Positions 166 through 61,758 of a stretch of DNA of 64,000 bases are shown in pieces. Numbering within the stretch: the stretch's first letter is position 1; each line of letters opens with the position of its first letter. The stretch is from positions 11,723,001-11,787,000 of the forward strand of contig NC_092673.1 in NCBI RefSeq assembly GCF_964355755.1, read 5' to 3'. Origin of the DNA: Antedon mediterranea. Its lineage: Eukaryota > Echinodermata > Crinoidea > Comatulida > Antedonidae. Under the pieces are notes generated by a model. The model made no database searches and had not been told where the DNA came from. It was given only the letters and a program-made list of their open reading frames with translations. Position numbers and translations under genes: made by a program.

Positions 166-2280
166 GTAACTGTCAAACCAATATATTTACTGGACTTGCA
201 GTAAATGCATAATGTCATTAAACAGCATGACATAAGCTCCTATGGAAAAGAAAAAGAATGAACAAAATCAGGCAAATTGTATCGATAGTAAGGGGCTGTT
301 AAAATAAATGTTTATATGATTTTCGATGACTGGTGCAACTTGGTAAACTGTGTTCCTAGATTTCTAAACGGTATCTTACATGTCAAATGTAATTTATTAT
401 TATTTAAAAAAGCAAAATAAATGAAATTAAATGAAAAGACTAAAATGTAGGTGTCATGAGATTAGTTACTCTAGTTGTTCATTGTGTGTTGGTTGTTGAG
501 AGAGGTAGTTTTCCAAGGGGAATATTCAATTCAATTTATTCCGGATTTTACTGGGGGACTCATCTCTTTCGATGGTACGTCCCATCCCAAATTTACAAAT
601 TTAATATAATTAAATAGAATGGTCAATGGCGTCATATATGGCTCAACACGAGCGATGTCTACATAACACGAGCGAGGTCAACTTGAGATAGTTATGTCCC
701 GTCCTGGCGTGCCATACAAATTTCATAAGAGCCAGACACACCTCACATCCACTTTTTGGAGTACACACCTTACCGACACTTCATCAGAAGCAAATCTACA
801 GCCCGGGCTACAGCCACATCTCACTTACAGCAACATTCATCCTCTGTTCCTGTGTGTTTGTACTTTAAACCTCACACATATTAAATTATGTATTTTAAAA
901 AACGAAACTTTCCTCCTGCAATGTGTGAGTCCCCTTATGGGTCTCAAGTAAATTCGATTAACCAATTATAAATGGAACTATTAGATTTGGCGATATCGCT
1001 TTGCTAAATTCTATTATTTGTTGTCCAAATATTTATTTATACTTGCTAACTACGTTACCGCATTGTTACAATCTAAAATTAATTTTGGAAAGATTCAAGA
1101 AAATTTTTTTATGCTTTTTTTTTGTGTGTATTGTTTCCAACTTTGTTTGCTTTTTGTATTTTAAAAAATATATGAAATATGCCAAAAAAGAATAAGAAAA
1201 GACTACTTGCCAATAATAATAATATAGGCCTACATTTTCAGTATTTATACAAACACCGTATAACTTTCATCTACACATAAATGTCGCGACACTGAATTGC
1301 TTTGTATACAAGTTCAATAGGGCCTCCACTTTTGTCACAACTCATCATACTAAAATATGAATTTATATATATTGCGAGCCATTAATTGTATTTCTACGGT
1401 CAGTCGTCATCCAATATAGCATATCAAGGTCAGGGGTAAAAAATGGCGGTTCCGGTCATTTTTTGTCCAATGTTTAATTGGAGTAAATATTTTCAGTATT
1501 TAGGCTACATAGGCTAGTGGGCCTATAGGCCTACACAGTCTTTTGCAGTGTTAGGACGTCATACGTTCACTGGTACTCATGTCTAGACCGAACGCCAAAA
1601 TGCCACTAACACTTGCCAGTCGACGTGCCAGTCGCCTAGCGCATGCGCATATCATAAAATGACGTAACAGAGTAGCAGTCGACATCAGTCGATGTGAAAA
1701 TCTAAAAGTCGCTAATGATCTTACTAATTATGATTATGTCGTCATTTGACTGGACGTGTGGAAATTATTTTCATTTCATTTTCATGTTTATGTGTACGTA
1801 AATGGGCCTTACACGTGATAACCTTATTTATCCTAAAAAATCTAATACAATTTTCGAACAGCATTTATTTAAGTATAATGTTTTAAGGCAATGATAACCA
1901 ATATTATGATAGGCATAGGCCTAATGTAATAGGTCACACACAAATTTACAGAATCATTTCGAATGATATAATTGTCCTTATTTTCACTATATGAAATTTC
2001 AGCTAAATGTTGGATTTTCTCGTGATGATATGCACATAACACGTTATGGTGGAGACTAATGCAACCTCTGTATGCTGTCACGAATTTGCCACCTGCTGCA
2101 AAACAATTAAAATAATACTTTACTTTGTTTTGTTATAACGCATAAAACAAATTATACGATAAGGAACAAGACTTGACAACATAATTACTTGATAGACAAT
2201 CGGTTTGCCTCACCGGCATCCCACTTTTTGATACCGTTACGAAGTAAACAATTTACCTTGATAATTGAAACTTTGTTTTG
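166..2280. other. Non-coding stretch, no gene recognised
   Basis: AT-rich sequence without a convincing gene. Around 523-560 a short TTCAATTCAATTT run followed by TTCCGGATTTTACTGGGGG resembles the 3' tail of a LINE on the minus strand. The short open frames at 694-951 and 1001-1195 have no domain-like composition. TTTATT at 1864-1869 (AATAAA on the minus strand) could serve as the polyadenylation signal of the secreted-precursor gene just to the right. Confidence 0.5.
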
Positions 2281-3555
2281 TTACTGCTGTTTTGCATGAT
2301 GTATATTCCGTTCAAACGAACTCGACTTGCTCATAGTCGATGAATCGTCAACTGAGAAATCAGGCTGGTTGAACGTCCGGTCACTACGGGAGTCACTACT
2401 AGACCAACCAAATGACCATTCTGAAATGGACCAGTCGAAACTAGACCAATTTATTTCATGAGACCAGTCGAAGTCGAACCAGTCAAAACTGGACCGGTCA
2501 AAACTGAACCAATCCAAACTGGACCAGTCAAAACTGGACCAGTCAAAACTGGACCAGTCAAAGCTGGACCAGTCAAAACTGGACCAGCCAAAACTGGACA
2601 ATTTCAATTTGAGTAAATTCTTTTTTGTGAGTTTTTCGCTCAAAATCTGCTGGTCGTTCATTTTCATTGCGGAAATTAATTCATCTTGAGGTAGTGACGT
2701 GTTTATGGAAAGTAATTCTTTTGCTCGTCTGTCTTCTAACTTATCATGGGAAACTGCATGTGACTGTTTTGATGATCGTGCTTTTAATAGGGCTTTCAGT
2801 AATATCTTATCCTTCTTTAACGAAACATCTCTGAAAACCTAAGTTGTAAAAAATTAGTAGTAGTAAGTATGCATTGATTCTTGGTTGTATTTATTGTACA
2901 AAAACCTATAATGAAATGGACAGATCTTGTGAGATGTTTCTCCCAGTGGAGAAGTAATAAACTCAAAAGATTAATTTCGCACTGTGCATTAACATTTGGA
3001 TAACAAATGAATGCCTGTTCGTTTGGTTAATTTGATAGAATTAATCATAACTGAATTGATTCATATATAATTATTTACCGCTGGCGGGATGAGATGAAAT
3101 AGGCATTCATAATAATCTTTTTAAAAATGTTCAGCCACTTGGCCAAGAATTGCCAATAGTAAATTGAACTGTCCATCGCTGCTGTTTAACTCTTTATCTG
3201 AACTGTGTTCTTTAAAGTGCATACGGGCTGTGTACACGAGACCTTAGACCTACAGTTTGGTCTTGAACTCATGCCGATATTGTTGGCTCTTTGTTTACGG
3301 TAACGACGCCCTCCCTTCCGCATGGTCATTTTACTCATTATGCACAATAAATACACAAGCCTCTGTGGTTCTTTTATAAATTAGGACAAAACATTTGTAC
3401 TTTGTAGCTACAATAAATAATCACAGGAAGTCAAATAAGCTAAGAAGAATTAAAGAGCCTACCTGTTTATATGGTGCTGCATTACCTATCGTCATTATTG
3501 CAATTAATAAAATCCCTATTATAGTTTTACTCCACACCATGTTTGTTGAAGTCAA
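2281..3555 (-). CDS. Secreted precursor with tandem SSFDW repeats (unrecognised)
   Basis: Predicted two-exon gene. Coding exon 1 (3540-3463) starts at ATG 3540 and encodes 26 residues beginning MVWSKTIIGILLIAIM, a typical signal peptide with probable cleavage after NAA. It ends at a CAG|GTAGGC donor. Exon 2 (2838-2281) follows a TTAG acceptor, is in the same phase (0), and ends in TAA, giving about 211 residues. A CTCAG acceptor 15 bases before the ATG (exon from 3555) suggests a 5'-UTR intron. The middle (about residues 60-95) is charged, with KK, RR and KTKK sites. The C-terminal half holds about 12 pentapeptides of SSFDW type (variants SSFGW, SSLDW, SFDR, ISEW), then an acidic-serine tail. 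There are no dibasic sites between repeats, so a classical multicopy neuropeptide is uncertain; a secreted repeat or adhesive-type protein is an alternative. No family was recognised. Confidence 0.6.
2455..2600 (-). repeat. 15-bp coding minisatellite (SSFDW units)
   Basis: On the plus strand CTGGACCAGTCAAAA repeats in register every 15 bases, so it never breaks the frame of the precursor gene. The most uniform copies are at about 2515-2590; those at both ends are diverged. The unit length equals one pentapeptide, so copy number can change without a frameshift. Confidence 0.85.
3205..3312 (-). mobile_element. SINE fragment (same family as 58.9-59.2 kb)
   Basis: The stretch with TTCTTTAAAGTGCATACGGG, TGTGTACACGAGACC, CTACAGTTTGGTCTTGAACTC and CATGCCGATATT matches in order the copy at 59.04-59.17 kb. 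It is a truncated, diverged copy of the tRNA-derived SINE described there. Confidence 0.55.
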
Positions 3556-3947
3556 CTGAGAAATAAAATACCACTTTCCAATACTAGCACCTGTAATCAA
3601 ATAGGAATACATAAAGGAAATTAACTTCCGCCTCTGCAGCAAGACAACTATGCAGCCTGTGTATAAGTACAACTTCTATTTGTAGTGATAAAAACCTTAT
3701 ATTTCTTATTTTTCTCTCCTTACTACTTTTATCTACAACACATCCAAAAGATGATTTCGAGATTACATCAGTGAAATGTAGACCTATCCGTTATGTTAAC
3801 ATTGAATGTTGCTGTCTGATATGGACATATAAAGCGTTGTGAGAACGATCAGCGCTTTATAAAAAGAAGGAATTATTATCATTATAACAGCTAAAAAATT
3901 AATAAAAATAATAACAATAGCAATAGAAAATGAAAAATAGAGCTGCT

Positions 3948-6197
3948 TGTTACAACCGCTAATGTAGAAAACGCCAGCTAATGTCGAAACAACCGTTAAT
4001 GTAGAACAATCCACCGCTTATGTAGTAAAACCTCCAGCTTATGTAGAAACACCAACAGCTTATGTAGTAAATAAAAATCAACACCAGCTAATGTAGAAAC
4101 AGTCAACAGCTTATTTAGTAACGAAAATTGCCTCCCAGCTTATGTAGTTACTATCGCCAGCTAATGTAGAAAATGTTATATATTTTACAAAAATGTCTAA
4201 TTCATGTGCAAATGCATCGATCTTTACTTAGCTATCAGTCTTTCCACCTCTCGTAAGCAACCAACTTTCTAAAATGACCACACATCGTAATAAGCTACCA
4301 TCTCTGTTAAGGGACCGCTTCTCATAATCGACCACGTCTCGTAAGGGATCACCTCCTCTCATAAGGGACCGCTTCTCATAATCGACCACCTTTCGTAAGC
4401 GACCACACCTCTCGTAAATGACCACCTCTTTTAAGGGACCACGACCTCTTTCTCCCTATTCAATTCAATTCAATTCAATTAAAACTTTATTATCCCCATG
4501 GGGAAACTCTGTTGGCCTTTTCAAAAATACAGTACATACAAATATAAAATGGATACAGTACATAAAATATAAAATACGATAAAAAAAGCCATACAAAATA
4601 TACATATAAAATCCTAAAAAGTCGATTAAAATACTACAAAAAATAAAACTAGCGCATAAAATACGATTATACGATTATATAATGAATGATATTATCATTC
4701 ATTATATAATCGTATAGCAGCAGGGACGAATGAATTGCCATATCTATTTGTTTTAATTTTTCTTTGAAGGAGTCTGTCACAACGTTGACTTTTGTTAAAT
4801 TTATAGTGCAGAGGATGAGCGTGGTCTTTTAAAATAATTTTCAATTTTTTAATTACTAATTCCTTATATAAAACTTCAGGTTGAATTTGTTCAGAGCCTA
4901 CTATTCTACTGCCTTGTTTAACTATTTTATTAAGTAAAAGTCTATCTTTAAAACGTGAATTACCATAATAACATATTAGGCAAAAACTAAGTACACTGTT
5001 TAAGATAGAAGTATAAAAAAGTTGTAAAATAGTACGGTCAATCTTAAAAGAGTTTAATTTGCGTAGAAAGAAGAGACGTTTTTGTAATTTATTGTATATG
5101 CACCTACTATTTGCATCAAATTTAAGTTCATTATCAATTTCAACCCCTAAATATTTGTAAGTTTTAACTTCCGAAATGGTCTCACCATTAACGGACCGCT
5201 TCTCATAATCGACTATCTCCCGTCACAACGACCTCTGGTAAGTGACCACCTCTATTGAACGTCCACCGTTTCTATTAAGGGACCGCTTCTTATAATCGAC
5301 CACCTCTCGTAAGTGATCACCGCCTCTCATAAGGAACCGCTTTTCATAATCGACCACCTCTCGTAAGCGACCACCTCTTTTAACGACCACACCTCTCGTA
5401 AGTGACCACTTCTTTTAAGGGACCACGACCTCTTTATCTCTATTAAATCTTCAATGATGAGAAGCGGTCCCTTAACAGAGACAGTGGTCGTTCAATAGAG
5501 GTGGTCACTTTCGAGAGGTCATTGTGATGGGAGATGGTCGATTATGAGAAGCAGTCCCTTAATAGAGGTGGTGGTCCTTTAAAATAGGTCGTCATTTACG
5601 AGAGGTGGGGTCGTTAAGAGAGGTGGTCCTTTAAAAGAGTCGTCACTGACAATTATGAGAAGCGGTCCTTTAATAGAGAGAAAGAGGTCGTGGTCCCATA
5701 AAAGAGGTGGTCACTTATGAGAGGTGTGGTCCTTAAGAAAGGTGGTCGTTTACGAGAGGTGGTCGATTATGAGAAGTGGTCCCTTATGAGAGGAGGTGAT
5801 CCCTTACGAGACGTGGTCGATTATGAGAAGCGGTCCCTTAACAGAGATGGTTGCTTACGATGTGTGGTCGTTTTAGAAAGTTGGTTGCTTACGAGAGGTG
5901 GAAAGACTGATAGCTAAGTAAAGATCGATGCATTTGCACATGAATGAGACATTTTTGTAAAATATATAACATTTTCTACATTAGCTGGCGATAGTAACTA
6001 CATAAGCTGGGAGGCAATTTTTGTTACTACATAAGCTGTTGACTGTTTCTACATTAGCTGGTGTTGATTTTTATTTACTACATAAGCTGTTGGTGTTTCT
6101 ACATAAGCTGGAGGTTTTACTACATAAGCGGTTGGTTGTTCTACATTAACGGTTGTTTCGACATTAGCTGGCGTTTTCTACATTAACGGTTGTAACA
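3948..6197. mobile_element. Foldback (long inverted-repeat) DNA element with 5-bp TSD
   Basis: Nearly the whole segment is a palindrome. Without the LINE inserted at about 4458-5188, the left arm is about 770 bases and the right about 750, with the axis near 5445. The ends are TGTTACAACCG and its exact complement, flanked on both sides by CTGCT (3943-3947 and 6198-6202), a probable target-site duplication. The outer arm consists of repeats of the type CCAGCTTATGTAGAAAC, the inner arm of repeats of the type GACCGCTTCTCATAATCGAC. Open frames at 4228-4425 and 5717-5917 are translations of these repeats, not genes. No transposase is present. The superfamily is not assigned. Confidence 0.85.
4458..5188 (-). 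mobile_element. 5'-truncated LINE insertion, intact RT C-terminus
   Basis: Reading on the minus strand from 5188 there is an open frame of about 165 codons without a stop, ending at about 4690. It carries KTYKYLGVEID (the usual end of the RT palm/thumb), LQKRLFFLRKL, and the final NSFVPAAIRLYNE typical of CR1/L2-like ORF2 ends. The 3' UTR ends in an (AATTG)n tail at about 4458-4480. The insert interrupts the left arm of the surrounding foldback, so it is younger than that element. A strong hairpin lies at the stop codon (4669-4715). Confidence 0.8.
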
Positions 6198-14100: not shown

Positions 14101-17100
14101 TATTTCAATGTATTACTGTGCATTATCTCATATGATTCATATTGAAAAACTTGATGCTCATTGGGACAAATGAATAAAGATAACGATTGGTGCGGGAGTA
14201 TGGCAGTCGCATCCTAGCACTTCTAGGTAATAATAGACCAGCCTATCATGAAGTGGATGACTATTATCATCTAGGATACACATAAACAATCTCACCACAT
14301 GTGTGTGAACAGACTCAACACAGACTAGAGCCAGTTAAATTACCTACTTTCTTTCAACGCGTTACTACCCCCCGCTGTAATACAATAAGCCCATACACCA
14401 CAAATAATGGATTGGTAGAACATAGTAAGGATTGCCCAAGCAATGCAGTATCATTAGCAAACCTTTTTTATTTATTTTATTTCAACTTTATTTATAGAGG
14501 GTAACCCTTCCAGCTGATATCCAGGGGCCCTCTTAAAAATGACAAAATATATAAAACTATACTTAACTAATACGAATCTACTATATACATTTAAATTTAA
14601 AACAATTATCTAAAAAAATAATTATCTAAAAAAATAATTATCTAAAAAATGTTCAATTAGACAATTACGATTTAATGTGTTTTTAAAAATTAAATTTAAA
14701 CGAGTTAATATTGGTACATTCTTTTAAAACAGAAGGTAATAAATTATATAAAATACAAGCAGAATAAATAAAAGAGCGCCGGAAACATTTCAATTTTACT
14801 TTGGGTACCAGTAAGTCGCCCCTGGAAGCAGCCCTAGTCCTCATAGAGCGTATCAGAACAGTGGATAATAGTTGGGTGATGTATCGAGGGGCAATATTGT
14901 TCATAGCTTTGAAAGCTAGGCAGCCTACCTGGTACTGCACCCTCTGTGACACATTCATGATGTGTAGAGATGTTAGAAGAATGTGAGTGCTGGTGCGAGG
15001 CGGAGCTTGAAGAACAACGATTTTGAAGTTTTTGAATCTTGTTAATGTTTGTTTTACTTCCGGTGCTCCAGAGAAGAGCACCGTAGTCAATGTGTGGTAA
15101 AATTAATGTGTTGTAAAATAAATGTGCTGTACGTTTGTCAAGATATTTTCTAATTCGTGCAAGTGTGTGGATTTTGAAAGAAAGTGTAGAGCTCAACTTA
15201 CTGACATGGGTATGCTAGTTAAGTTGATTGTCAATGTGCACACCTAAGTGTTTGTGGTTAGTTACTACTTTGATCGGTTGTCCAGCAGTCGATACATCTA
15301 TTGTTTTGTGTTTGAGCCGCTGAGGGACGCCAATTAACATCGCCTCAGTTTTGTCAGTGTGTAATGATAATCGGTTAGAGGTGAGCCATGTGTTAATTAG
15401 TGAGAGGTCAGAGTTGATGTTTCTGTTAATGATATGTATGTTAGAGTGCGAATATTAGAGGGTGGAATCATCAGCATAAAGATCAAGAGTGCCATGTTCT
15501 AGAACAGTGGCAAAATCATTGATGTAAATTGTGAATAACAAGGGTCCAAGAATGGACCCCTGAGGTATACCGTGTGTTATGGTTACAAAATTAGAATAAG
15601 TATTTTTGAATTTAACTGTTTGAGTGCGGTTAGTTAGATATGATGTGAACCACTCGATGCCAGATGAGGATACACCACACCGAGTCAGTTTTCTAAGCAT
15701 GATCTTGTGGTTGACCGTGTCAAAAGCTTTTCTTAAATCTATGAAAACTGACCCGGTGAGGAGACCCTCATTCATAGCATCGAGCCAGTTGTCACAAGTG
15801 TTAGTAAGTGCTGTAGTGGTAGAGAAGTGTTTCCTAAAGCCTGATTGGTTATCTGAGAGAATGTTCTGTGCTGTAAGATAGTCATAGAGTTGGATATGAG
15901 CAGCGCGTTCGATGATTTTAGAGAGGATTGGTAAAACGGATATAGGTCGATAATTGTTGAGTTCGTCCTTGGCCCCACTTTTGTATATGGGAACTTTGGA
16001 AAAATACCAGATAAAAGTGAAAGATTACAGATATATCACAGAAGGCGCAATAACAGGGGCTGCCAACTTGAGCAATTTGATAGGGTAACAATTTACTCCA
16101 AGCGACGTTCCACAGTCCAATCGACTAAGCTGTTCCAGAACAGACTCACAAGATACCCTCTGAAAATCAAATTGAGAATCAAATAAAGGTAAGTAAGAAC
16201 ATGGATCAACATTATAAGTGCATTGTCAAGATGAGTAGCTATATTTACAAATTAATCATTATATGCAGTACTAATTTCATTTTCATTACAAGAAGCATGA
16301 CCATTGATCCTAACAGAAGATGGCAACCAGTTAGACTTTGATGAGATCAAATGTTTCATTCCTTTCCACATCTTGCTGGTGTCATTTGCAGATTCAATTA
16401 AAAAGTTCCTATAATAATTAACTTTTGACTTTCTACACATTTTATTAATCTGATTTCTTAATTTTTTAATTTTTAACCATAATTCAGCTTGACCGTTTGG
16501 TTTTGCCTTTGACTTTAATCTATCACGTTCGTACATCAGAATCAATATGTCATCACGACCTTTTAACCACAAGGGCAAACTTTTTTTTAAACGTTTCGTT
16601 TTTTTCTGGAGCATGGACATTAATTACTCCACCAAGGAAATTGTGAAGAACTTTTAAACAGACGTTCACGTCATCAAGTTGAGGAATTATGTTCCAAGGT
16701 AGTTTTTTCAGGTCATTAATGAAGTTATCCTCATTGAAATTTCGGAAGTCCCTGAAGGTCCGCTGATCATGTTCATTCTTAGGGGGTTTGATACGTATTG
16801 ATGTAAAAATAAAGTCATGATCACTTATGTCCGACGACAACGTTGCATTGTTGTTGTGTAATTCCTTGTTGGTTGTGAGTATAACATCAATTAACGTTTG
16901 AGAGTCTCTGGTCGTACGCGTTGCATTCGGGAAAATCTGTGTCAGATTGAATAAGTCCATGATATGCATGAGACTGTTTCTATTCGTGTGTGGTTTCAGC
17001 ATATCCACATTAAGATCGCCTAGCATGATAAAATCCTTGGAATCACAATAGTCTTCCAGGAAACTCTCAAGATGAGTAAAATATATCGCAGGCGAGTTTG

Positions 17101-17891
17101 GGGGTCTGTAGACAACTGATGCCCGTGTTGCAACTGAAGCCACATGAATTTCTACAAGAAGGGATTCGATACTAGCATGTTTAGGATCCACGATTAACTG
17201 GGTAAAAAATCCTTAACAAGAGCCGGTTTATTAAAATTTTCTCACACACTTTCATGGCATAAGCGCAATAGGCCTTAGGTCATTCATGCATTTCATGACT
17301 GATTTCTTTGGAATAGGAACTATACAAGAGGTTTTCCATATGTTGGAAATAGTTTGAGTAAAAGAAATATTAAAGATATTCATAAATACGTAACTTAGTT
17401 GGTCAGCACAATTTATCAGGACCAGCACCCTTACATGAGTTTGATCTCATTTGTTGTTACACTATCTAGCTGACCCCAGCATTAAGCATCCGTGTGATCG
17501 CATCCTTCTCCTCAGAGAAGTTGCGTGTATCTATTTTACTATTAGCAAACCCACTCATCAATCGCATGCCATTCCAAACCTGAAATCATTATTCATAAAT
17601 TTGTTCAATTTTTCTTTTGTAGGCTAATTCACCTTTAAGAATGACACGTTAATTATTAAATGCTGTTCTCTTCTGTTTACTATTGGCATACGATTTAACA
17701 AACGTGGGTGGGCTAATCATATTTTTACAAAACTCTATATAACCACAAACAGTTTCAGTAACTTCAGATACGTCACCAGAATTATGTAGAAACATATTTT
17801 AGTCAGTACAGTCCAAAGCCCCCCTTAAAGATCCTGAAACACAAAAAATAAAGGTCAAAATATTCTAAATATAAATTGGCCATATTATTAT

Positions 17892-47841: not shown

Positions 47842-49164
47842 ATGGCTTCATATCCTAAAAAACAACGCATGTCTGCAGATTCGTGTCTTGAAACGTTTAT
47901 AAGCTGGTGTGAAACAAATGGATTCAATCTGAATCGCAAAGTTAGTGTGAAAGCAGCAGCAAGGTCGGAAGATGAAGTTACTCCATGGTCTGAGAATGTA
48001 GTGGCTGAATTGGGAATGATGGCTATTGCAGACTTAGACAAGGGTGAAGAATTGTTCAGGATACCAAGAAAGTTACTTATTCATCCAAAAACATCACATA
48101 TATCGGAAACAATTGAAATAAATAAAGATAAGCTAAAAGGTGAAAGCGGTTGGGTACCCTTGTTAATTACACTGATGTTTGAATATACTTTTTCAGAATC
48201 TTCTTGGCGATCATATTTAGACCTCTGTGTTGATCACCATGTGTATAACTTGCCCATGTTTTGGTCGTTTGAACAACTTGGACAATTAAAAGGCACAGGT
48301 ATCAATGAGGAAGTTAATCGTGATCTTGAAAATATTGCAACCGAGTTCGATACAATTGTTCTTCCATTTCTTAAAGAACATTCAACAATGTTCAATACGG
48401 ATGTACATACATTTGAACTGTACAAGAAAATGGTGGCATTTGTTATGTCATATAGCTTCACAGAACCACCAAATGATGTTGATAGACCACCAACACCCCC
48501 AATGATGGTACCAATGGCTGACATATTAAACCATGTATCAAAACACAATGCTTGCTTAGAATTTGATCAAGACTGTCTTAGAATGGTAACAACTTGTAAA
48601 ATCAATGCAGGAGAGGAAGTGTATAACACATATGGGGAGCTTTCCAATTCACAGCTTCTCCACATGTATGGCTTTGCAGAAAAACCATCCGATAATGTCT
48701 TTGATGTTGTTGAGTTCACATCCGACGACTTGTTTGATCAAGCTAAATTGATGAAAGAAGTTAAAATAGAGCTATTAGATGAAAAGATGTTGCTTCTTGG
48801 GAAAGAGGAAACATTTGTTGTGGGAAATGAAGGCATATTAACAGAAGATGAAATTAACTTGAACCTTAAAGTTCTCTTTATGCCAGCAGAGGAATTTAAG
48901 AATTATAAAAGAAACAATGGTTGGATGTCTGATGATGATGAGGATATCAATTTTGATTTTGACCACTTAAAGGAACTACCAAACTTATGGAAAATCCTTT
49001 TAGCTTCTGTAGCTAAAGAGTGTTTAGCAAGATACCATAATATCCAAAATGAAGATGCTGAATTTCAAAACAATAAAATCTGTTTTGTTTATGTTGGTTA
49101 TGTGAAAGAAGGACAGATTAAATTGTTGCAAAGTTTGCTAAGTTCTCTCAATATAGGAATATAA
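47842..49164 (+). CDS. SETD6: N-lysine methyltransferase SETD6, intronless
   Basis: A 440-residue protein. SETD6 enzymes are nuclear SET-domain methyltransferases that monomethylate lysines in non-histone targets such as RelA. Start: the ATG at 47842 is directly preceded by an in-frame TAA. The domain order fits: short N-terminus with FISWCETNGF; split SET domain with ELGMMAIADLDKGEELFRIP and SGWVPLLITLMFEY; YLDLCVDHHVYNLPMFW; IVLPFLKEHSTMF; MVAFVMSYSF; MVPMADILNHVSKHNACLEF (DILNH at residues 227-231, cofactor site); EEVYNTYGELSN (residues 259-270, catalytic tyrosine region); and HMYGFAEKPSDN. A Rubisco-LSMT substrate-binding domain follows, with VLFMPAEEFKNYK. The acidic DDDEDINFDFD lies near residue 360. 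There is no intron and no stop, and the length is close to the family's. AATAAA at about 49457 is a plausible poly-A signal. Confidence 0.95.
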   Translation: MASYPKKQRMSADSCLETFISWCETNGFNLNRKVSVKAAARSEDEVTPWSENVVAELGMMAIADLDKGEELFRIPRKLLIHPKTSHISETIEINKDKLKGESGWVPLLITLMFEYTFSESSWRSYLDLCVDHHVYNLPMFWSFEQLGQLKGTGINEEVNRDLENIATEFDTIVLPFLKEHSTMFNTDVHTFELYKKMVAFVMSYSFTEPPNDVDRPPTPPMMVPMADILNHVSKHNACLEFDQDCLRMVTTCKINAGEEVYNTYGELSNSQLLHMYGFAEKPSDNVFDVVEFTSDDLFDQAKLMKEVKIELLDEKMLLLGKEETFVVGNEGILTEDEINLNLKVLFMPAEEFKNYKRNNGWMSDDDEDINFDFDHLKELPNLWKILLASVAKECLARYHNIQNEDAEFQNNKICFVYVGYVKEGQIKLLQSLLSSLNIGI

Positions 49165-59000: not shown

Positions 59001-61758
59001 CACCGGGTAACCCCCTACTCGTCTCGAAAGACGTACTAGGTTCTTTAAAGTGCACACGAGCAAGTTGTGTACACTGGACCTACGGTTTATAGTCCTTATC
59101 CGAGAAGACTCGTTCTACCACCAGAACCATGGAGTAAGTGAGCCTCGAACCCCTGCCGATGTTATGGCTACGTGACGGTTCCACTGTCTTAACCGCTCGG
59201 CCACTCACTCACTACCCTGTGGGTTCTATTGTATTCGAGAACCATCTGAGGGGACCCCTAGATGGTATGCGAGCGAACCATCTAGTTACTAAATTTGCTT
59301 TATGTTAAAAGATCCCATAGAATTTGTTATGTGAAAAATAGCATTTCTCAAATACACAAAATAGATAAAACTGTGAACATCTAGTAACATCAGACCTATG
59401 GCAATGTGTACATCAGACCTATGGCAATGTGTACATCAGACCTATGGCAATGTGTACATATGACCTCAGTGATACATCTAGTAACAGCAGACCTATGGCA
59501 ATGTGTACATATGACCTATGGCAATGTGTACATATGACCTATGGCAATGTGTACATATGACCTATGGCAATGTGTACATATGACCTATGGCAATGTGTAC
59601 ATATGACCTATGGCAATGTGTACATATGACCTATGGCAATGTGTACATATGACCTATGGCAATGTGTACATATGACCTATGGCAATGTGTACATATGACC
59701 TATGGCAATGTGTACATATGACCTATGGCAATGTGTACATATGACCTATGGCAATGTGTACATATGACCTATGGCAATGTGTACATATGACCTATGGCAA
59801 TGTGTACATATGACCTATGGCAATGTGTACATATGACCTATGGCAATGTGTACATATGACCTATGGCAATGTGTACATATGACCTATGGCAATGTGTACA
59901 TATGACCTATGGCAATGTGTACATATGACCTATGGCAATGTGTACATATGACCTATGGCAATGTGTACATATGACCTATGGCAATGTGTACATATGACCT
60001 CAGTGATATTGTATGGGTTTGATTTCCTTTGTCAATTTAACAGACTTATATTACTTTACGAATATAGACACTATACCACAGGAAACCAATTTAATTTATT
60101 TTAAACTTATTTGTATCACAGGTGGGTCTATTTGCTGGATAATTTTGTAAATATTTGTAAAAACAAGTATCCTTTCAAAAACCCTTAAAGATGTATTGTC
60201 CCTTTGTCAAATTCCAAAAAAATAAAAATAAAAAGATTTCGAAAAAAAGTGGGTCATTTTGAAGCATTATAATAGTTATTAACTTTCACAAAAAATTAGT
60301 CGAGAAAAAAAATCATTTAACTGAAATAGAGACGTTTTTTTTTGTTCAAAAAATAACTTTGACTTCCAGTCAAAGTTTTCGATCAAAACATATCTCATAA
60401 TGCAACGCGCTTATTTGGCTACTCTGTACGCATAATCATAAAACTTCCTCGCGATCTGTGTGAAAACACCTTCTCAACCGTGAGGAGTTGTAAACAATCC
60501 TAATTAACATCATGCATAATGTATACTCATGGTTTGAAATCTTTGTTTACTTTCGCTCGCGACGATTTTCCAGACGAAATGTAATCAAATTAATTTAGCT
60601 GTTAATTACGTAAAATTGTTGTTTTTGGCTCGAATTTTCGACTTAAAGTAAAAAACTTTAATATTACTTTGATATCGCCAATTTAAATTTAGAATATTTT
60701 GACCTTCATTTTTTGTGTTTCAAGGGACAATACATCTTTAAATAAGTGCTACTGGATATTCCAAGGAGCAAACATAGGGAGAGTTGGGGAGATCGAACTT
60801 TCAGTAAATTGCTGGGCCCAGGAACCACCTACCTTTGAACATTAAACAAACATCATTATTGAGCACTTTTAACTCACTTCTCAAAACTTACATTTTTTGA
60901 TATTTTTTGCAGCGCCATGAGTAATGACTGTTGGAATGGCGCTATATAAATCTTTATCAATATGTCTTGGCAATGTCTTGGTAGAAAAATGTTCTTGGCA
61001 CATGCACAAAATTGAACACTAGAAGGCAGCATCTTTGCTTATGTGGGCACACTAACACTTCATCTTTTATTTTCACTCCATACTAGGAGAGGGTGCATTC
61101 TGGTTGTTATGCATTTAAGCAAATATATTTGCTTAGTATTATCAATAAATCCAACAAAAATTAAGTTACACTTTTTTTGGCTTTGATAAATCTGTCCCCT
61201 AGGTCATAAATTAAGATATTTTCCAGTTTCTGTATTAAAATGCACTTCTCAGCTATCCAGGACTAAACAGCTCATTCATTCAAGGAAAGTATACTGTCAA
61301 CCAATCAAATCTTTTAAATTGTGGTTTGATGAGGACAACAAAAGAGCTAATATTGTTTTCTGACTTTTACTTTATGTCTGTCACCTTTGCTTTGATTTCT
61401 TTAATTATTATGTCATTTACATACTTGTGCATAGTACTGTAGTTATAATTGTGTGCCTTTGATGATCAAAATAAAGATTGAAACATTGAATCATGGCTTG
61501 CTTCTCGTTATTATTAGTCAATATCATATTTAATAATAATAAATTTTAAACAAAAAAAACTAACTTGTAACATCTTGCTGAAGTCGTTAACCATCTTTTT
61601 AATACAGTCTACTAACTGGTCTGATAAATCTCTCACAAGAATTACTTGAAGGCTAGCCAATTGTTTTGTCCACTGTAAGGCGTAAGTGCCCAGGTACTGA
61701 AAACTTTGGGTTGCTTGCATAACACTTGTATCAACATCTCCATAACATGAAACATCGT
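53078..61758 (-). CDS. Unidentified multi-exon gene, C-terminal five exons
   Basis: Exons in coding order: 61758-61565, 57801-57643, 56984-56853, 53859-53631, 53367-53078. All junctions are GT..AG and phases join (two bases enter the first listed exon), giving about 334 residues ending in TAA. The sequence is mostly amphipathic helix with leucine-rich stretches: QYLGTYALQWTKQLASLQVI, LSDQLVDCIKKMVNDF, HQVICKALKFTARIIGELA, GILDGADALADRTIQEGIQL, LVKCCLQVLKSVQLLFLKVQ. A serine-rich C-terminal part follows (LLPSQSMISINISLQS) and an end ATRIECDREESI. It has no signal peptide or catalytic motif that I can name and looks like a helical scaffold. Upstream exons lie beyond 61758 and perhaps outside the window. 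Introns hold a LINE fragment, SINEs, a 23-bp satellite and a MITE. I do not recognise the family. Confidence 0.7.
54020..55400 (+). mobile_element. LINE 5' fragment with APE endonuclease
   Basis: Plus strand, antisense to the surrounding gene. A 5' open frame at 54024-54692 is followed by MDELSGTIKTE, an in-frame TAG, and ADIAIVTETWITKNSNPAKF (endonuclease N-terminus with the ETW motif). After a frame break come VYIPPNSEHCS, IVVLGDFNRNDLR and TLDLIITNL (54855-55205), then LGRSEHNCI with the conserved SxH. These are CR1/L2-type endonuclease motifs. Sequence ends before RT, so the copy is 3'-deleted or rearranged, and it is dead. Confidence 0.8.
55401..56840. other. Intron sequence with dispersed repeat and tRNA-like stretch
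   Basis: Bases 55415-55800 resemble the CG-containing dispersed repeat at 10.4 and 13.5 kb. Bases 56158-56232 on the minus strand read like a tRNA-derived SINE head: an A-box-like TGGCGCAGCGCATG and a B-box-like GAGTTCAAGACC. No intact tRNA fold was confirmed. Confidence 0.4.
57133..57560 (-). mobile_element. tRNA-derived SINE, diverged copy
   Basis: It shares with 58.9-59.2 kb the core CAGTGGCTGTG, ACTAGTACACCGGGGTAACCCC, GATGTACTAGGTTCTTTAAAGTGCAC and CCACCAGAACCA. Its 3' end (left side, CTTATTTATAGAGGGTGACCC) matches the 3' end of the LINE at 14.5 kb (TTTATTTATAGAGGGTAACCC), as expected for a SINE that borrows LINE machinery. The tRNA-like head is poorly preserved. Confidence 0.75.
58870..59213 (-). 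mobile_element. tRNA-derived SINE with clear A and B boxes
   Basis: On the minus strand the head reads GAGTGGCCGAGCGGTTAAGAC (A box) and GCAGGGGTTCGAGGCTCACT (B box) about 59207-59134, as in Leu/Ser tRNAs. A conserved body follows (GTGCACTTTAAAGAACC, TAGTACGTCTTTCGAGACGAG, GGGGGTTACCCGGTGTATTAG), then a GGGCCCTCTGGG/GGTCACCCAG 3' end and a T/G-rich simple tail on the plus strand (58879-58920). This is the best-preserved of three copies. Confidence 0.85.
59391..60000. repeat. 23-bp satellite, about 26 copies
   Basis: The unit is GTACATATGACCTATGGCAATGT. From about 59480 to 60000 copies are almost identical. The first copies (59391-59480) carry the variant ACATCAGACC and a CTCAGTGATACATCTAGTAACA interruption, and the sequence CTCAGTGAT recurs after the last copy. 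It lies in an intron of the unidentified minus-strand gene. Confidence 0.95.
60189..60737. mobile_element. 549-bp MITE, copy 3, TTAA-flanked
   Basis: Best-preserved copy: perfect termini AGATGTATTGTCCC and GGGACAATACATCT flanked by TTAA (60185-60188, 60738-60741). The body is collinear with 11959-12505. No coding capacity; it lies in an intron of the unidentified gene. Confidence 0.9.

Follow-up and report, generated by a model that had tools for sequence, protein, structure and literature searches.

An SSFDW pentapeptide array in a probable secreted protein of the crinoid Antedon mediterranea

Introduction

Secreted adhesive and slime proteins of marine invertebrates carry, behind a signal peptide, short tandem repeats rich in aromatic residues, serine and charge. 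Here we describe a locus of the crinoid Antedon mediterranea that likely encodes a secreted protein with an array of pentapeptides of the consensus SSFDW; it lies on the minus strand of a 64,000-nt stretch of assembly GCF_964355755.1 (contig NC_092673.1, positions 11,723,001 to 11,787,000; hereafter the window, with position 1 its first letter). In gene layout, its nearest described counterparts are the F-type SALMFamide precursor genes of crinoids and other echinoderms, which, in the available text of two reports (PMC9793003; PMC4313774), encode secreted products with a signal-peptide exon, a phase-0 intron and one repeat exon, as found here, a layout that many secreted proteins may share. 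A further likeness to the genes in that text lies in units of the shape SxFx followed by an aromatic residue; a phase-0 intron just upstream of the start codon would be another, and the present locus has two candidate acceptors for one. The precursors named PCNP in the available text of PMC9793003 are also from crinoids and likewise combine a signal peptide with some basic sites. The reading that we prefer for the SSFDW protein, tentatively and at somewhat less than an even chance, is that of a sticker-and-spacer protein which is secreted and disordered and associates with itself, as part of an adhesive, a mucus or a granule.

Gene model and repeat array

The precursor comprises 211 residues in translation and derives from two minus-strand exons, with the following parts:

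3463–3540, minus strand: signal-peptide exon MVWSKTIIGILLIAIMTIGNAAPYKQ, 26 codons (translation; hydrophobicity and the -3/-1 rule)
2839–3462, minus strand: intron, phase 0, GT-AG, 624 nt (splice scoring)
2853–2859, minus strand: TACTAAT branch-point-like motif running into T6 (letters and motif count)
2281–2838, minus strand: main exon, 185 codons and a TAA stop at 2283–2281 (translation; simulation)
2599–2838, minus strand: basic spacer within the main exon, with KK, RR and KK sites and weakly predicted helices
2404–2598, minus strand: array of 13 units, consensus SSFDW, 65 residues
2462–2599, no strand assigned: 15-bp minisatellite core beneath the array (Tandem Repeats Finder)
2284–2403, minus strand: Ser-rich C-terminal tail, 40 residues (translation)

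The start ATG at 3540 has a good context (AACATGG), and the signal peptide, called from hydrophobicity and the -3/-1 rule only, is predicted to be cleaved, most likely after residue 21 or 22. The donor of the intron is strong, an equal or better score being reached by only 0.31% of the 7168 GTs in the window; the pyrimidine tract of the acceptor before 2838 is ordinary, and its score is reached by 16.7% of the 6261 AGs. All splice and signal scores rest on general metazoan frequencies rather than on a model trained on A. mediterranea.

In the mature part, the spacer accounts for 84 residues with a net charge of +9 and contains the three dibasic sites of the precursor (residues 34, 63 and 98). 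The array has a net charge of -11 and 12 Trp, 12 Phe, 21 Ser and 10 Asp in its 65 residues, its units running in the order SSFGW, SSFDW (four times), SSLDW, FSFDR, SSFDW, FDFDW, SHEINW, SSFDW, SISEW and SFGW. Six of the 13 units are exactly SSFDW and 12 end in Trp, FSFDR being the exception. At 2478–2599, Tandem Repeats Finder reports a 15-bp period with 8.1 copies and 89% matches. The later units SHEINW, SSFDW, SISEW and SFGW have diverged in their DNA and kept the frame, the length variants SHEINW and SFGW deviating by +3 and -3 nt, and Trp is kept in 12 of the 13 units although the outer ones fall outside the minisatellite.

Re-translation returned the signal peptide, coordinates, strand and phase-0 intron as described in the first-pass annotation of this DNA. 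The roughly 12 Trp/Asp/Phe-rich pentapeptides that it placed in one exon are here refined to 13 units, 12 of them ending in Trp, and its remark that no dibasic sites separate the repeats is correct, as all such sites lie in the spacer. The 15-bp minisatellite that it took to encode the array does so at 2462–2599 and not for the later, diverged units.

Evidence for and against a functional gene

The preferred reading is supported by the length of the open frame, the signal-peptide and donor signature, the branch motif with its T run, and the diverged units that stay in frame; the split of charge between spacer and array is also counted for it, as is the structure prediction. AlphaFold2, run on the main exon alone and without an alignment, gave a mean pLDDT of 49 and a pTM of 0.19, with spacer helices at low confidence and an array mostly below a pLDDT of 50 or without regular structure. 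Because a stop-free 15-bp repeat holds frames open unaided, the simulation kept the array and randomised only the flanks (first-order flank model, 20,000 trials, best of six frames). In 0.24% of the trials (P = 0.0024) the longest open frame reached 185 codons or more, the median being 91 codons. At the strict setting, whose signal-peptide thresholds had been derived from exon 3463–3540 itself, this exon is the sole instance of a signal-peptide exon followed by a phase-0 donor. With the thresholds relaxed, both strands of the window (128 kb in total) hold a single match when the donor score is at least 2, and the loosest setting gives six, presumably with the target exon among them, or about 0.07 expected per 1.5 kb. 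The combination of a TACTAAT-like motif and a T run, seen at the first acceptor, occurs at 49 of 6260 AGs in the window. Against their consensus, 11 five-codon units have 17 differing sites, six of which are synonymous where 13% would be expected (p = 0.019). This test and that of the Trp codons below used 11 of the 13 units, SHEINW and SFGW having been dropped for their other length, and are only suggestive, since the repeat units share ancestry.

Several observations weigh against the preferred reading. The synonymous excess has p = 0.050, 0.081 and 0.106 at transition biases of 2, 3 and 4, and conservation of the Trp codons (1 difference in 33 sites versus 16 in 132 elsewhere) has p = 0.105. 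Both splice sites had been annotated as consensus, which fits the donor; the ordinary acceptor, however, has an alternative AG of equal score 8 nt downstream, use of which would lead to a truncated product of 33 residues. In codon usage, the 146 codons outside the repeats reach 0.002 bit per codon under a compositionally narrow training set (20 receptor genes, 4267 codons), a value lower than that of any of the 18 gene chunks (mean 0.114, minimum 0.048). It is about one standard deviation (sd) above the 54 non-coding open frames (mean -0.074, sd 0.072), and the SETD6-related frame of the same window scores only 0.036 bit per codon. Other 15-bp arrays in the same genome also read as open Trp pentapeptides: L006 (G000:C6 near 1650908) carries an STISW/STINW array in a 185-codon frame and L002 (G000:C1 near 23838797) an SVFTW array in one of 64 codons, and they caution that an open Trp array alone is insufficient to call a gene. 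The low pLDDT of the prediction, obtained with one sequence, is a weak argument for disorder. On balance, we consider it likely, at about four in five, that the SSFDW-array locus is a real gene.

Copy number and relatives

The genome searched comprises 354 Mb on 18 contigs. The only place in it that the main exon matches in full is its own locus, and the non-repeat part matches the gene's own two exons only. The other 49 of 50 matches all overlap the array (best E = 4.2e-4) and were rejected as relatives. At the 13 of these 49 places that were inspected (L002–L006 and L011–L018), the frames shown are those of further minisatellites or of a Thr-rich repeat, and L003–L005, L016 and L018 have no Trp-rich frame that passed the filter used. 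L015 (G000:C10 near 2785730) has, in frame 3 from 231, an open Thr/Ser/Pro-rich mucin-like frame of 335 codons with Cys-containing segments. In a DNA-level search, 38 of the 39 matches lie within the intron at about 3353–3199 and represent a dispersed repeat; the exons have no other match in the genome by this search, which skips simple repeats. Judged from the sequence, the SSFDW gene appears to be single-copy.

Pfam yielded no family even at E values up to 1, the best PDB match had E 0.63, and nothing came near the cut-off in NCBIfam, where mini-MOMP_1 (E 0.029, 14.1 bits versus a cut-off of 75) matched the hydrophobic start only and was rejected. Collections of viruses and prokaryotes yielded 55 and 136 pattern stretches, respectively, none of them confirmed, and Rfam had no match in the whole window. 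COX1, sought for the mitochondrial code, likewise gave no match. The string SSFDW is absent from the 5.39 million open papers searched, a scope that does not extend to most subscription journals, nor to supplements or sequence databases, and nothing was found there on Trp-rich repeats. Six related strings were set aside, the matches listed having titles from agriculture and immune-repertoire work. The earlier statement that no family with SSFDW arrays is known therefore agrees with Pfam, NCBIfam, PDB and the open literature.

This lack of relatives in its own genome, Pfam, PDB, NCBIfam and the viral and prokaryote collections would also suit a minisatellite in a chance or decaying open frame, that is, no functional gene, or a young orphan without a settled role. 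Codon usage under all 18 gene chunks points the same way, as do the other open Trp pentapeptide arrays of the genome, which look non-genic. The improbable length of the frame (P = 0.0024), the signal-peptide and donor signature and the diverged units in frame argue to the contrary, and we regard this explanation as unlikely.

Possible functions of the protein

As a self-associating secretion, the mature protein would be mostly disordered. Its Trp and Phe residues could act as stickers spaced by Ser and Asp and, together with the oppositely charged basic spacer, may drive self-association by aromatic and charge contacts, which would yield a condensed or cross-linked secretion such as an adhesive, a mucus or a storage granule. 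With its 15-bp period, the array may lengthen or shorten without a frameshift. Feather-star larvae attach by means of an adhesive pit, according to the available text of PMC11336682, and a gene expressed in an organ of secretion or attachment would agree by analogy with the preferred reading. A more specific version is doubtful: a secreted crinoid-lineage protein with SSFDW as a new sticker-and-spacer unit, in which the Trp-Asp array would condense a secretion or glue it, perhaps at the larval adhesive pit or the tube-foot papillae, and the repeat number would be tunable through the in-frame minisatellite.

The three dibasic sites of the spacer also allow for an unorthodox peptide or neuropeptide precursor, whose cleavage at KK98, with possible further cuts at non-basic positions inside the array, would release either a single long aromatic peptide or many short ones. 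The resemblance of the gene layout to the crinoid SALMFamide genes in the available text of PMC9793003 and the fit of SSFDW to the shape SxFx plus aromatic residue favour such a precursor. Between the units, however, there is no dibasic site and no Gly preceding a basic site, and the crinoid study, in its available text, required such sites and discarded sequences without them (PMC9793003). By the main-text description in the same report, PCNP1–20 are also without such a repeat. We consider a peptide precursor improbable, at roughly one chance in five.

The charge split (+9 in the spacer versus -11 in the array) and the spacer helices, predicted at low confidence, are equally what a defence peptide precursor might have, in which the spacer (around KKDKILLKALLKARSSK) supplies a cationic helix that is held neutral by the acidic array until its release. 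Typical helical antimicrobial peptides are strongly amphipathic, whereas the hydrophobic moment of the spacer is low, at most 0.35 in 18-residue windows, and this role is quite unlikely. Acidic activation domains have similar Asp/Trp/Phe-rich arrays, a likeness that could point to an intracellular acidic-aromatic segment, e.g. a transcriptional activation domain, to which the signal-peptide exon has been wrongly attached. Pfam gives no DNA-binding domain, and the phase-matched signal-peptide exon lies immediately upstream, so that we hold this to be very improbable.

If the SSFDW gene is expressed, the crinoids, which are sister to the other echinoderms, gain a secreted protein with a repeat unit unseen in the libraries and papers searched. 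It would also offer a compact natural Trp-Asp sticker sequence for tests of protein condensation in sea water, and an example of a coding minisatellite that has grown while held to its frame. If the product is a peptide precursor after all, its processing would depart from the dibasic rule.

Untranslated regions and neighbourhood

The following candidate features flank the coding exons:

3591–3592, minus strand: candidate 5'-untranslated region (UTR) acceptor AG, the higher-scoring of two (3.96, reached by 1.8% of 6261 AGs)
3556–3557, minus strand: candidate 5'-UTR acceptor AG, the one first annotated (1.92, reached by 4.8% of AGs)
2096–2256, minus strand: possible 3'-UTR intron (2.2% of GTs score as well as its donor and 5.4% of AGs as well as its acceptor)
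1864–1869, minus strand: AATAAA polyadenylation-like signal, the sole A[AT]TAAA match in 2280–1500 on this strand

Immediately upstream of the SSFDW gene lies an inverted-repeat element (3948–6197) with 343-nt arms that are 98% complementary, ends TGTTACAACCG and CGGTTGTAACA, and a CTGCT flank on each side. The arm matches scored (40 of 474 candidates) are 95–100% identical, so that the element looks like a member of a recent and numerous transposon family. Within it, a 175-aa open frame (4695–5222, minus strand) resembles by eye the C-terminal part of a reverse-transcriptase protein, and open frames at 14683–17212 (minus strand) resemble by eye a non-LTR retrotransposon with endonuclease and reverse transcriptase. 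An uninterrupted frame of 440 codons at 47842–49164 (plus strand) is related to SETD6 (PDB 3qxy, E 3.5e-78; SET domain) and is apparently intronless across this range. A 23-bp tandem repeat (26.2 copies, 95% matches) occupies 59393–60000. The genome contains one neurophysin exon and, about 8.8 kb upstream of it, an exon that encodes a signal peptide and the sequence CFWRTCPVG, with GKR after it. Of the papers searched, only PMC9793003, on feather stars, contains CFWRTCPVG, as the crinotocin of A. mediterranea, and by its account Trp-Arg at positions 3 and 4 distinguishes the crinoid peptides from those of other echinoderms; we read this as the mark of a crinoid genome.

Comparison with known systems

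Bacterial pentapeptide-repeat proteins, presumably the Pfam family PF00805, share the five-residue period and were rejected, as Pfam gives nothing at E up to 1 and the A(D/N)LXX motif is absent. The SSFDW units differ from those of F-type SALMFamide precursors in that no Gly and basic cleavage sites lie between them, none of the three dibasic sites following a Gly, and in that the unit ends in Trp after Asp and occurs in one minisatellite-like array only. Having no cleavage or amidation sites between its repeats, the protein is not filed as a SALMFamide precursor. The PCNP precursors were chosen for putative peptides bounded by dibasic sites; at this locus segments of the spacer are so bounded and the repeats are not, and no peptide in the main text of PMC9793003 resembles SSFDW. 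The first-pass annotation had set the protein apart from common multicopy neuropeptide precursors on the same ground, and without cleavage sites between the units we concur. No sequence relation to marine adhesive or slime proteins was found; it is their repeat style that the SSFDW protein shares.
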